A stretch of DNA of 64,000 nucleotides, taken from NCBI RefSeq assembly GCF_011290485.1, contig NZ_CP048029.1, forward strand, positions 806,001-870,000, read 5' to 3'. The notes beneath the pieces are model-generated. The model worked only from the letters and a program-made list of their open reading frames with translations. It was not told the origin of the DNA and did not search any database. Shown piece after piece: positions 60,793-64,000 of this stretch. A program made the translations under genes and the position numbers. The DNA comes from Caldichromatium japonicum (GTDB lineage: Bacteria > Pseudomonadota > Gammaproteobacteria > Chromatiales > Chromatiaceae). Position 1 is the first letter of the stretch, and each line of letters opens with the position of its first letter.

Positions 60793-60821
60793 TTGGTCGT
60801 TGTAGGATGATACTGTATATT
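60793..60821 (+). promoter_or_regulatory. Promoter of the RHH-methyltransferase unit
   Basis: TTGGTC and TATATT are separated by 17 bases. The -10 element lies in the spacer and arm region of the palindrome at 60809-60829, so the bound regulator could shut the promoter. Confidence 0.55.
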
Positions 60822-60829
60822 GCAGTATC
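60809..60829. promoter_or_regulatory. Palindromic operator between the divergent units
   Basis: GATACTG and CAGTATC form a perfect 7-7-7 inverted repeat with spacer TATATTG. It lies 33 bases before the RHH gene and about 50 bases before the divergent unknown gene, which suits control of both by the RHH protein. Confidence 0.7.
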
Positions 60830-60861
60830 TTCGCAGTACAACCGCCGCAACGAGGGCACCC

Positions 60862-61095
60862 ATGGCCAAGGGCAAGACCAGCACGCTGACCTTCCGCATC
60901 GAACCGGCGCTGAAGGAGGCGCTGCGCGCCGCCGCCGAGCGTGAGCACCGATCGATTGCCAACATGGTGGAAGTGCTGATCCGCGACTGGTGCGGGCGGA
61001 ACGGCATCGCGATTCCCGAGCAGGGCGCGCTGTTCGCGGAGGAGCGTCAGCCGTCGGCGCATGAATCGGCGACGAAGAAGGGGAGGAAGGGCTGA
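60862..61095 (+). CDS. Ribbon-helix-helix (CopG/Arc-type) regulator
   Basis: This 77-residue protein starts KGKTSTLTFRIEPALKEALR, a beta-strand then helix, followed by EREHRSIANMVEVLIRDWCG, the second helix of the RHH fold. The tail is basic. RHH dimers bind short palindromes, and one lies directly upstream. Its stop overlaps the methyltransferase start as TGATG, which points to co-translation. It may regulate the modification genes. Confidence 0.85.
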   Translation: MAKGKTSTLTFRIEPALKEALRAAAEREHRSIANMVEVLIRDWCGRNGIAIPEQGALFAEERQPSAHESATKKGRKG

Positions 61096-64000
61096 TGGCG
61101 ACGAAGAAGGAAGCCGCGCGTGGCAAGAAGCCCGCTGCGCCGCGCATAACGCGCGCGAAGACCAACAACAAGCGCCCAATCGAATCCTACGAACATCGGG
61201 ACAAGCAGCGCGTCAACAACCCGCCCGTGGGGCTGGTGACGCCGGAGACCGACCCGGACGCGGGCGCGAAGAAGACCTACGCCTACGACCCGCACCTCGA
61301 CCCGCAACTGGTCTGGGCGGGCAAGGCCGAGCATACCTCCTTCGAGGTGCCCACCGTATCGCTCCACGTCCACGAGCGCATCGACCCCAAGACCATCATC
61401 GAGGCGGTGCGGAAGAACGCCCTCACCCCCAGCCCCTCTCCCGGTGGGAGAGGGGAGCGCGAAGCGCCGGGTGAGGGCTATCAACTCCCCCTGTTCGAAG
61501 AAGAGCGCAAAGAGCCGCTGCGCGAGGCCGTCGAGTTCTACCGGCACAAGCACGGCTGGAGCAATCGCCTCATCGCCGGCGATAGCCTGCTGGTGATGAA
61601 CTCGCTCCTGGAAAAAGAGGGCCTGGCCGGCAAGGTGCAGATGATCTACATCGACCCGCCCTACGGCATCAAGTACGGCTCCAACTTCCAGCCCTTCGTC
61701 AACAAGCGCGACGTTAAGGACGGCAAGGACGAGGACCTGACCGCCGAGCCGGAGCAGATCCGCGCCTTCCGCGACACCTGGGAACTGGGCATCCATTCCT
61801 ACCTCACCTACCTGCGCGACCGCTTGCTTTTGGCGCGCGAACTCCTCACCGAGAGCGGCAGCATCTTTGTGCAGATCAGCGACGAGAACGTGCACCACGT
61901 GCGGGAGTTGATGGATGAGGTGTTTGGGGCGGGCCACTTCATCGCCTGCATTGCGTTTAAGACTTCCATTGGTCTCGGTTCCCAGCATCTCGACCGAGTA
62001 TACGACCATATTGCGTGGTACGCGAAAGACAAGGATAAGGTGAAATACCGACAATTGTACTTGTCACTAGAAAGAGGCGAAGAAGGCGCAACTCGTTACA
62101 CCTATGTTAGGCTGCCCAATGGTGAGGAGAGGTTATTGACGGGAGAGGAGAGGGAGAAGGCAGATCGTCTCCCTGGGGGGGCAAGGTTCTTTACAGATCA
62201 AGGTCTCACGTCGCGCACCGGTTCTGATACCACAAGAAAAGCATTTGTCTTTGAAGGTAAGGAATATGTTCCCACAGTCGGCGGTTGGAGAACCAGCATC
62301 GAAGGATTAGCGCGCTTGGCTCAGGCTGGGCGAGTACTAAAGGCAGGAGCAACGCTGCGTTTCAAGAAGTTCTTTGATGATTTCGGTGCGATTGCACTTA
62401 CAAACTTCTGGGCAGATGTTGGGGGCGGGATTCAAAGCCGATCAGATCCAAAAATCTACGCAGTTCAAACGAACACAGCTGTCATCGAGCGCTGCCTCCT
62501 GATGACCACCGACCCGGGCGACCTGGTCTTCGACCCCACCTGCGGCAGCGGCACCACGGCCTATGTGGCCGAGCAGTGGGGGCGGCGCTGGATCACCTGC
62601 GACACCTCGCGCGTGGCGCTCACGCTCGCCCGCCAGCGCCTGATGACCGCCGTCTTCGACTACTACGAACTGGCCTATCCCTCACCCCAGCCCTCTCCCT
62701 CCGGGAGAGGAAGCGGAGAGAGTGTCCGCCATCCCGGAGAGAGAGGGAGTGATGGAAACCCTCTCCCAGCGGGAGAGGGTGGCCGAAGGCCGGGTGAGGG
62801 CATACAAGGCGTCTGGAACGGCTTCAAGTACAAGACCGTCCCGCACGTCACGCTCAAGTCCATCGCCAACAACCCGGAGATTGACGGCATCCACGCCCGC
62901 TGGCAGGCGCGCCTCGAACCCATCCGCGAGCAGTTGAATAAACTGCTCAAGAAAAAATGGCAGGAGTGGGAAATACCGCGTGAGACGGAAGATGCTTGGC
63001 CGAAAGAAGCCAAGAAACTGCTCGCCGACTGGTGGCAGTTGCGCCGCAAGCGCCAGGAGGAGATAGACGCCGCCATCGCTCGCCATGCGCCGCAGGAGAC
63101 GCTCTACGACCAGCCCTTTGTGGACCGCAAGAAGGTGCGCGTGACCGGGCCGTTCACGGTGGAGGCCGTGCCTGCTCCAGCGGTGAAATCAGTGGATGAT
63201 TTACTCCCCTCTCCCTTTGGGAGAGGGGCCGGGGGTGAGGGAGTTAGGGGTGAGGGCAAAAAGCCGCTGCCTCAGGACCTACTGGAATTTGCCCGTCAGT
63301 TGCGGAAAGAGCAAACGGATGCCGAACGCTTAATGTGGTCGCTGTTGCGCGATCGACGTTTGGCAGGATTCAAGTTCCGCCGGCAACATCCCGTTGAACC
63401 GTACGTCCTCGATTTCTATTGCCACGAAGCGCGACTTGCGGTTGAGCTTGACGGCGGCCAGCACAACGAACCCGATGCGCGGGCGCGGGATGAACAGCGC
63501 ACAACGTTCCTCGAATCTCAGAGTATTCGCGTGTTGAGGTTCTGGAATAACGATGTTCTGAAAAACACAGAGGGTGTATTGCAGGCGATCTATGATGCTC
63601 TCACCCAGGGGGAGAGCCTCACCCCAACCCTCTCCCAGGGGGAGACCCTCACCCCAACCCTCTCCCAGAGGGAGGCCCTCACCCCAACCCTCTCCCAGAG
63701 GGAGGCCCTCACCCCAACCCTCTCCCAGAGGGAGGCCCTCACCCCAGCCCTCTCCCAAAGGGAGGCCCTCACCCCAGCCCTCTCCCAAAGGGAGAGGGAG
63801 TTTGTGGCCGATGCTTCCATCGCCCGCTCCGGCGAGACCCTGCGCCAGGCTGAATGGCGCGACGAACTCCTGCGCGCCGGCATTCGCGGCAAGGCCGGGC
63901 AATACATCCGCTTCGCCCGCCTGGAGCCGCTCCCCGGCTGCCGCTTCCTGCACGCCGAAGGCGAGACCCGCCCCTCCGCCGAAGGCGCCGATTCGGTGCG
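61095..64000 (+). CDS. Beta-class adenine DNA methyltransferase with embedded repeats and DUF559 domain (partial)
   Basis: This open frame of at least 968 codons runs off the right edge. The N-terminus is basic (KKEAARGKKPAAPRITRAKT). The catalytic motif DPPYGIKYG is at residues 187-195, and the SAM motif FDPTCGSGTT is at about 479-488, the beta-class order (as in type III Mod and similar enzymes). VFGAGHFIACIAFKTSIGLG lies between them. After about residue 570 come VWNGFKYKTVPHVTLKSIAN and a helical region. REP-like insertions occupy residues 109-130, 528-571, 704-721 and 835-901 approximately, with a DUF559 domain at 722-835. The methyltransferase part resumes at FVADASIARSGETLRQAEWR. Start overlaps the RHH stop. 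Whether the insertions abolish activity is unknown. Confidence 0.85.
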   Translation, partial: MATKKEAARGKKPAAPRITRAKTNNKRPIESYEHRDKQRVNNPPVGLVTPETDPDAGAKKTYAYDPHLDPQLVWAGKAEHTSFEVPTVSLHVHERIDPKTIIEAVRKNALTPSPSPGGRGEREAPGEGYQLPLFEEERKEPLREAVEFYRHKHGWSNRLIAGDSLLVMNSLLEKEGLAGKVQMIYIDPPYGIKYGSNFQPFVNKRDVKDGKDEDLTAEPEQIRAFRDTWELGIHSYLTYLRDRLLLARELLTESGSIFVQISDENVHHVRELMDEVFGAGHFIACIAFKTSIGLGSQHLDRVYDHIAWYAKDKDKVKYRQLYLSLERGEEGATRYTYVRLPNGEERLLTGEEREKADRLPGGARFFTDQGLTSRTGSDTTRKAFVFEGKEYVPTVGGWRTSIEGLARLAQAGRVLKAGATLRFKKFFDDFGAIALTNFWADVGGGIQSRSDPKIYAVQTNTAVIERCLLMTTDPGDLVFDPTCGSGTTAYVAEQWGRRWITCDTSRVALTLARQRLMTAVFDYYELAYPSPQPSPSGRGSGESVRHPGERGSDGNPLPAGEGGRRPGEGIQGVWNGFKYKTVPHVTLKSIANNPEIDGIHARWQARLEPIREQLNKLLKKKWQEWEIPRETEDAWPKEAKKLLADWWQLRRKRQEEIDAAIARHAPQETLYDQPFVDRKKVRVTGPFTVEAVPAPAVKSVDDLLPSPFGRGAGGEGVRGEGKKPLPQDLLEFARQLRKEQTDAERLMWSLLRDRRLAGFKFRRQHPVEPYVLDFYCHEARLAVELDGGQHNEPDARARDEQRTTFLESQSIRVLRFWNNDVLKNTEGVLQAIYDALTQGESLTPTLSQGETLTPTLSQREALTPTLSQREALTPTLSQREALTPALSQREALTPALSQREREFVADASIARSGETLRQAEWRDELLRAGIRGKAGQYIRFARLEPLPGCRFLHAEGETRPSAEGADSV
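61419..61485. repeat. REP-like palindromic repeat inside the methyltransferase gene (copy 1)
   Basis: The stretch encodes LTPSPSPGGRGEREAPGEG and holds the hairpin CCCCTCTCCCGGTGGGAGAGGGG. It is of a class of palindromic repeats that normally lie between genes. It adds whole codons, so the frame is kept. It lies before the catalytic domain. Confidence 0.85.
62676..62806. repeat. REP-like palindromic repeat cluster (copy 2)
   Basis: About 130 bases with several CCCTCTCCC and GGGAGAGG arms encode PSPQPSPSGRGSGESVRHPG and NPLPAGEGGRRPGEG. It sits between YYELAY and the FKYKTVPHVTLK segment and keeps the frame. Confidence 0.8.
63204..63257. repeat. REP-like palindromic repeat before the DUF559 domain (copy 3)
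   Basis: The hairpin CCCCTCTCCC-TTTG-GGAGAGGGG is in this stretch, which encodes LPSPFGRGAGGEGVRGEG. It marks the left boundary of the DUF559 insertion. Confidence 0.85.
63258..63599 (+). other. DUF559 (Vsr-like nuclease) domain inserted in the methyltransferase frame
   Basis: About 114 residues start KKPLPQDLLEFARQLRKEQT and include FKFRRQHPVEPYVLDFYCHE and LAVELDGGQHNEPDARARDE. This is the DUF559 family, related to the very-short-patch-repair endonuclease fold, with an acidic DxE-like core in DFY...ELDGGQH. It ends VLRFWNNDVLKNTEGVLQAI. It is flanked on both sides by REP-like repeats and is in the methyltransferase frame. Free-standing DUF559 genes are common, so it may be an inserted gene captured in frame. 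Confidence 0.85.
63597..63795. repeat. 30-bp tandem repeats, six units, on the right of DUF559
   Basis: Six near-identical 30-bp units (starts at 63616, 63646, 63676, 63706, 63736 and 63766) follow a partial unit. Each encodes ten residues of the type LTPTLSQREA and contains a CTCCC...GGGAG hairpin. As 30 is a multiple of three, copy number can change without a frameshift. Confidence 0.92.

Follow-up and report, generated by a model that had tools for sequence, protein, structure and literature searches.

What is a nuclease domain, flanked by palindromic repeats, doing within the reading frame of a DNA methyltransferase? The question is raised by a 64,000-nucleotide stretch of the Caldichromatium japonicum genome (NZ_CP048029.1, positions 806,001 to 870,000; the whole stretch is hereafter the window), near the end of which an N6/N4 DNA methyltransferase gene carries a DUF559 domain between inverted repeats. 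A first-pass annotation of the sequence had proposed that this repeat-DUF559-repeat unit is a movable cassette that keeps the frame of its host, with the repeats as possible landing sites. Our comparisons make it likely that the unit represents a mobile element of the form [hairpin-tail] - DUF559 nuclease - [tail-hairpin], in which the inverted palindromes would be the ends and a Vsr-fold nuclease the only protein. Judging from sequence comparison, the unit recurs in unrelated genes and phyla and is present or absent at defined sites. The features of the window that bear on this are as follows:

61095..64000, continuing to 65117, + strand: host N6/N4 DNA methyltransferase gene (open reading frame and Pfam)
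63206..63241, + strand: left end of the cassette, hairpin CCCCTCTCCC-TTT-GGGAGAGGGG and an inward tail ending GGGTGAGGG
63264..63602, + strand: DUF559 nuclease domain (Pfam; conserved family positions kept)
63600..63794, + strand: array of 6.5 tandem units (30 bp each) derived from the right repeat
63766..63798, - strand: right end of the cassette, inward tail CCCTCACCCC and hairpin CCCTCTCCC-AAA-GGGAGAGGG, an inverted copy of the left end
63801..64000, + strand: methyltransferase sequence resuming after the cassette (comparison with the empty allele)
61419..61482, no strand assigned: solo palindromic element in frame in the methyltransferase, arranged tail-hairpin-small hairpin-tail (fold and pattern)
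62676..62800, no strand assigned: palindrome doublet in frame in the methyltransferase (fold)

The cassette and its nuclease

The methyltransferase frame, which had been noted to run from 61095 past the edge of the window, ends at window coordinate 65117 in the genome record (L002) and encodes 1340 aa. Pfam placed N6_N4_Mtase at aa 181-512 and DUF559 (PF04480) at aa 729-836 with an E value of 1.7e-39, and the whole gene gave the same result; the DUF559 match scored 134.5 bits against a curated cut-off of 20.6 and was the only PF04480 match in the genome (G000). The left and right palindromes, 21 nt each, lie 550 nt apart, and the right one is complementary to positions 63207-63227 at 21/21 nt. 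The presence of a complete DUF559 (Vsr-fold nuclease) domain in frame inside the methyltransferase, bracketed by inverted hairpin-plus-tail repeats, is thereby confirmed. Since the right repeat is expanded in tandem, the right-hand block recognized in the first-pass annotation is one end that has been amplified; the 30-bp array is translated in frame as LTPTLSQREA-like units. A similar in-frame tandem expansion, of another unit, was seen in record L026.

The repeat pattern CCTCACCCN{2,8}CCTCTCCC had nine matches in the window, all within the methyltransferase gene (shuffles expect 0.00). Searched for genome-wide at ≤2 mismatches, the hairpin produced 22 strand-hits: 11 lie in the methyltransferase and 11 at about six other places. 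Folded as DNA, the palindromic block at 61419-61482 reached -27 kcal/mol (z -6.16 vs. shuffles) and the doublet at 62676-62800 a z of -6.75. For the single ends of the cassette the deviation was smaller (z -1.5 on the left, -2.3 on the right), probably owing to the very high G+C content. When the three frames through the left end (63206-63241) were read from the sequence, a stop was present in one only (TGA in GGTGAGG). With one stop-bearing frame of three, insert-tolerant loops can keep the cassette, and the in-frame habit needs no special mechanism.

To assess the nuclease, we aligned 75 DUF559 domains (the window copy and 74 loci described below), with residues numbered from 63264. W25, F38, R40, Q41, F51, E61, D63, G64, H67, D76, and R79 were invariant (75/75), including in copies within housekeeping proteins, and D50 was kept in 73/75. 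A structure model of the window domain (pLDDT, the predicted local distance difference test score, 91.9; 39-row alignment) had its best fold matches in NGO0050 (3hrl, E 4.7e-8) and the homing endonuclease I-Bth0305I (3r3p, E 1.6e-4), with E. coli Vsr a weaker match (1vsr, E 0.053). The domain is thus a DUF559 member with a predicted nuclease fold of the Vsr/EDxHD type. In the accessible part of PMC3943268, the active sites of EDxHD and PD-(D/E)xK homing endonucleases are described as similar. Partial-length matches of the DUF559 profile to enterotoxin B subunits (E 0.004 and worse) were taken as chance. According to the portion of PMC12907096 available to us, the DUF559 protein VsrA is needed for a DNA damage response seen in a subset of Caulobacter cells without the methylase ScmA; VsrA affects SOS, and the authors propose a repair enzyme, the damage being repair gone wrong. 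The VsrA-dependent response fits with DNA cutting in vivo.

Recurrence of the unit and its matched ends

From a scan of GTDB genomes we kept the best 80 of 193 DUF559 relatives, 74 of which, from many phyla, had both flanks present. Palindromes occurred within 200 nt of DUF559 on the left in 62/74 loci, on the right in 68/74, and on both sides in 59/74, so that the unit, which the first-pass annotation had suggested seeking in other genes, was indeed found there, in many unrelated hosts. Counted in 200-nt bins, the nearest bin held 78 palindromes on the left (76 loci) and 106 on the right (78 loci), the next bin 14 and 13, and bins at 1-3 kb 0-5 each (63-73 loci). In 48 frames the sequence extended ≥90 aa beyond DUF559 on one side; 27 of these were scanned with Pfam, and a host domain was present in 25/27 (L034 and L069 had none). 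The 14 kinds of host were ValRS, LeuRS, MetRS, MetH (twice, at different places; L044, L059), HrpA, HsdM, HsdS, MmeI/Eco57I-like proteins, N6_N4 methyltransferase, FtsJ, class III aminotransferase, Mur ligase-like protein, lipoyl ligase, and glycogen debranching enzyme. Some inserts lie near the protein end or contig edge (L032, L045, L061, L068), and additional HsdM, MmeI-like, and HrpA hosts came from one family (L256, L257, L260, L251).

A search of 55 genomes with the methyltransferase C-terminus gave six matches (own included), and the site was readable in three relatives, two from the same genus (L175, L177) and one from the same family (L176). All three (3/3) were without DUF559 and without repeats: 9-11 residues separate the VK(S/A)(V/I/L)D and (A/T/D)(S/A)(I/V)AR(S/T)GE blocks, L175 reading ...VKSVDEILEPRPEPANASIARSGETLRQ and L176 and L177 similarly. 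In matches L178, L179, and L185 the region is deleted or too distant. Four further records (L025, L026, L028, L074) have DUF559 and palindromes at this same site, so palindromic repeats accompany 5/5 DUF559-bearing copies seen (the window and these four); the L028 frame ends shortly past the right repeat. An old fusion shared by homologues and devoid of repeats, which the first-pass annotation had named as the contrary case, is therefore not what these records contain. Since the same insert occurs in four other records, it is older than this genome; the cassette did not arrive here recently and has probably travelled with the methyltransferase gene.

Other hosts gave similar pictures. At the HrpA site, read in 28 genomes among the best 30 of 56 that matched, 18 alleles were empty, five carried full cassettes, four had palindromic inserts without DUF559 (L193, L194, L203, L210), and one had a GTAG-type doublet (L200). 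All of these inserts occupy one loop, after a SATLDAERF-like sequence; the five cassettes carry related DUF559 copies and need not represent five events. G163 has an empty allele at this loop, with a related DUF559 (73%) further along the gene. At the MetH site, 23 of 30 loci were readable (the seven unread include the query's own), with two cassettes and 21 empty alleles, and at the MetG (MetRS) site the 15 plus-strand loci read of 30 gave two cassettes and 13 alleles without. Most empty alleles read contain no repeat (18 HrpA, 21 MetH, 3 methyltransferase). The S. meliloti and Azospirillum plasmid searches yielded no empty site among the matches listed. The doublet of L200, a repetitive extragenic palindrome (REP) of the GTAG type (GTAGGAGCGAGC...GCTCGCTCCTAC), stands in frame in the HrpA loop used by DUF559 cassettes; two unrelated kinds of element shelter in this single loop.

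Free-standing copies were also read. In E. coli the sapF-ycjD-fabI stretch is kept at ≥80% in 3333/5426 genomes, including an O16:H48 strain and BL21, and in strain KE47 the ycjD-type gene (sapF-ycjD-fabI) has related repeats downstream. As an empty-site case ycjD was rejected: the three strains read without it carry an efflux operon instead, and none gave a clean empty site. Strain 4/2-1 retains ycjD with IS421 adjoining. In Klebsiella (L166, 3001-3276), an unannotated DUF559 stretch lies between cysP and a Dyp-type peroxidase gene; it has a stop near the domain end and related repeats downstream, and looks like a decaying copy.

Do the repeats belong to the nuclease or to the genome around it? 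The left flank of a locus matched its own inverted right flank at a score of ≥18 in 48/74 loci, vs. 0/65 for flanks taken 900 nt further out and 15% of mismatched left/right pairs. Flank similarity rose with DUF559 similarity (Spearman 0.485, 2657 pairs; 0/500 permutations), also between different phyla or proteobacterial classes (Spearman 0.478, 2250 pairs; 0/500 permutations); 44 pairs with shared context had been dropped, and group labels were taken from record titles. The strongest test is a permutation within genomes, since it removes genome background. It used 20 copies from four genomes (G067, 8 of 10 matches; G114, 4/8; G063, 4/4; G133, 4/4). End-to-end scores had a median of 33 for own ends vs. 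10 for cross comparisons, a sum reached in 0/20,000 permutations, and the own right end was the single best match in 14/20 rows. Alignments of the G067 copies showed quite different ends, matched within each copy. The repeats thus appear to belong to the nuclease copy, copies tending to have their own matched pair. Together with the empty alleles and the in-frame copies in 14 kinds of host, this match supports the proposal of a movable, frame-keeping cassette.

Elements with such ends and no nuclease were found in G067, where one end type occurs 16 times: two DUF559 cassettes account for four of them, as their ends, and the other 12 are dispersed elsewhere. Nine of these 12 have an inverted partner downstream at a score of ≥15, 2/12 have an upstream partner (one has both), and 0/12 have one at 500 nt distance. 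The nine nuclease-less elements are ~122-141 bp long with tails inward, like the cassette. The same end pattern, searched in three further genomes, was present in one (G063, 3 sites). The relation of cassettes to mini-elements resembles that of autonomous RAYTs to non-autonomous REPINs as proposed in PMC3116915 (accessible part).

An association was also seen among 100 Pseudomonadota genomes, namely the centre G015, whose DUF559 was known beforehand, and 99 drawn. PF04480 matched at E ≤0.001 in 32/100, and the 22 with a best E <1e-10 were counted as real (21/99 without G015), the 10 weak genomes being set aside (six of them with matches in frames >1500 aa). At least three copies of the repeat pattern were present in 17/22 DUF559 genomes vs. 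6/78 others (Fisher 2.8e-10; the threshold was chosen after seeing the table, and genomes are not independent), and at least one copy in 17/22 vs. 13/78. A relaxed palindrome pattern matched in 21/22 DUF559 loci (the miss being L105), a raw count without a chance rate.

A probable mobile element and its rivals

If the unit is a mobile element, we infer that its nuclease drives movement. The nuclease would nick or cut its own terminal hairpins or tails, probably when replication has made them single-stranded, and the unit would be copied or joined elsewhere, in a REPIN-like manner, by the host's replication and repair. Inserts in genes would survive only in a tolerant loop and a stop-free frame; once in frame, the nuclease would be translated within the host protein, giving the element expression and shelter from loss. 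The window case would be an older insertion in a methyltransferase linker, near an integrase gene, the gene probably having spread horizontally with its cassette. More broadly, and here we judge the chances evenly balanced, the unit may typify a class of transposable elements with a Vsr/EDxHD-fold nuclease as their only protein, which would recognize its own hairpin ends. Such a class would be an independent counterpart of RAYT/REPIN, would spread nuclease-less mini-elements as well as part of the bacterial REP families, and would persist in frame in loops of essential or restriction-modification proteins, the host protein carrying and expressing the nuclease.

Several observations weigh against a mobile element driven by its nuclease. 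Movement was not observed, no biochemistry on these ends was found, and target duplication among 48 elements was not beyond chance. Direct (non-inverted) left-right matches reach a score of 18 in 23/74 loci, the ends being palindromes; in 6/20 multi-copy cases some other right end matches at least as well as the own one; and by the pattern search at least one side is without a palindrome within 200 nt in 15/74 loci. At the genome level, 6/78 genomes without a strong DUF559 match still reach three repeat copies, and 5/22 DUF559 genomes are without the repeat pattern (G015, G054, G098, G130, G138). The sole DUF559 protein found with an in vivo study, Caulobacter VsrA, is proposed as a repair enzyme (PMC12907096, in the part seen). 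Host labels also cluster on the DUF559 tree (24 changes vs. a shuffled mean of 41.5), so that many inserts are of old, inherited origin, and the tree, with 9/78 inner branches starred, is too poorly resolved to prove jumps. Its clearest mixed-host pairs join a LeuRS insert to a small free-standing copy (L065/L086, starred), the HsdM insert L048 to L035 (starred), and a PglX-like to an HsdS insert (L041/L064, 91).

Among the rivals, the best survivor, though an unlikely one in our view, is that a homing-type DUF559 cuts pre-existing repeats and the cassette is copied in by recombination, the repeats being landing sites. In its favour are the DUF559-less palindromic inserts at the HrpA cassette site of L193, L194, L203, and L210, and the closest solved folds, those of NGO0050 and of I-Bth0305I, a homing endonuclease of the EDxHD type. 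However, the left end of a copy fits its own right end better than it fits most others, most empty alleles at the HrpA, MetH, and methyltransferase sites are free of repeats, and G000 offers only about six repeat places outside the methyltransferase. The landing-site part of the first-pass proposal is accordingly less well supported than the cassette itself.

There is only a slight chance that these are ordinary REPs spread by RAYT (Y1) transposases, with DUF559 genes riding between them. REP-like hairpins inside open reading frames and RAYT-REP units are known (PMC3733652, in the part seen, where DUF559 is not mentioned), and the HrpA loop of L200 holds a GTAG-type doublet. Against this, PF01797 (Y1_Tnp), searched in the same 100 genomes, gave no support for RAYT as the mobilizer: it was found in 13/23 repeat-rich vs. 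50/77 other genomes (Fisher p 0.47) and was absent from 9/17 genomes having both DUF559 and repeats. DUF559 copies of one genome, moreover, tend toward different, self-matched ends.

We consider it very improbable that the window holds an ordinary ancient fusion, in which the nuclease serves the methyltransferase or restriction-modification system, the repeats being incidental. DNA modification is the role of many host genes (HsdM, HsdS, MmeI-like, N6/N4 methyltransferase), and L025, L026, L028, and L074 share the methyltransferase insert, but tRNA synthetases, MetH, HrpA, and lipoyl ligase also serve as hosts, the insert is absent from relatives, and all five methyltransferase copies seen have the repeats. 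That a small Vsr-like defence or repair gene was spread by other means, its palindromes being terminators or recombination hot spots, is hardly credible either: in its favour are the Vsr-like label of DUF559 and the effect of VsrA on SOS, with a repair role proposed for that protein (PMC12907096, accessible part), but essential genes keep an open frame across the palindromes, the ends are self-matched, and G067 has scattered copies with such ends and no nuclease. An assembly artefact joining two loci at the cassette is unlikely and was rejected, considering that G000 is one 2.99-Mb contig and that the independent records L025 and L026 have an identical arrangement.

The surroundings of the methyltransferase gene were also read. 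The next gene downstream encodes a ResIII-domain protein, and a tyrosine integrase (Arm-DNA-bind_3/Phage_integrase; L002:10888-12171, ~68887-70170, beyond the window) follows the pair. Because this integrase with its arm-binding domain lies downstream of the methyltransferase-ResIII pair, the arrangement suggests a restriction-modification locus on a genomic island. Directly upstream (60820-61095) is a gene for a small ribbon-helix-helix protein, possibly a regulator of the methyltransferase.

DUF559 is a widespread domain of 'unknown function,' with strong matches in 21 of the 99 drawn Pseudomonadota genomes, and we know of no mobilizer for many bacterial palindromic repeats. If the link between the two holds, one domain would explain the spread of a repeat set and DUF559 would gain a function; nuclease domains would also have a way of entering essential proteins that needs no splicing. 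Where an annotated 'fusion protein' contains a peptide such as LTPTLSQRERG or PSPSGRGAGGEG, it may then be an insertion rather than a functional fusion. Since the ycjD gene of E. coli K-12 is a DUF559 member, the link is directly testable there. A literature search (preprints and most subscription papers lying outside it) gave no description of such a DUF559 element, and among the DUF559 papers listed no title or abstract opening was about REPs.

Comparison with known element types

Established element types were compared with the window cassette feature by feature. For a DDE transposon or insertion sequence, target-site duplications, which the first-pass annotation had suggested as a check, would be expected; duplications of at least 4 nt occurred in 5/48 elements vs. 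2.3 expected (the window copy not being among the 48), so that this check lent no support. No Hint splicing domain of an intein was among the Pfam matches of the methyltransferase, and, as regards a group I or II intron, no Rfam family matched at gathering score in 61000-64000 and the frame is open throughout.

The RAYT/REPIN system (REPtron) is similar in having a gene flanked by inverted palindromic repeats, dispersed gene-less doublets, and an enzyme and repeat that co-diverge; its trait of dispersed gene-less copies with the same ends was found in G067, the one genome examined in detail. It differs in that the DUF559 unit encodes a nuclease of the Vsr/PD-(D/E)XK type, not a Y1 HUH transposase: Y1_Tnp had no match in the methyltransferase gene, where the domain between the repeats is DUF559. 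Neither a GTAG nor a CGTC tag is present at the window repeat, whose tail (GGGTGAGGG) is GTGAGGG-like, and the DUF559 unit is frequently in frame inside host proteins.

EDxHD and free-standing homing endonucleases such as I-Bth0305I share a related catalytic fold (3r3p) and the invasion of conserved genes. Unlike them, the DUF559 unit has no detected intron or intein, consists in the window copy of a catalytic domain of ~110 aa only, and occupies many non-homologous sites with its own palindromic ends. Rickettsia palindromic elements and in-frame miniature inverted-repeat transposable elements likewise place palindromic units in frame in unrelated genes; the Rickettsia elements are ~150 bp and encode a conserved peptide (PMC10969869, accessible part), whereas a nuclease is what the autonomous DUF559 form encodes. 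The DUF559 domain of the window cassette is shared, finally, by Caulobacter VsrA and E. coli YcjD, but their genes are free-standing.

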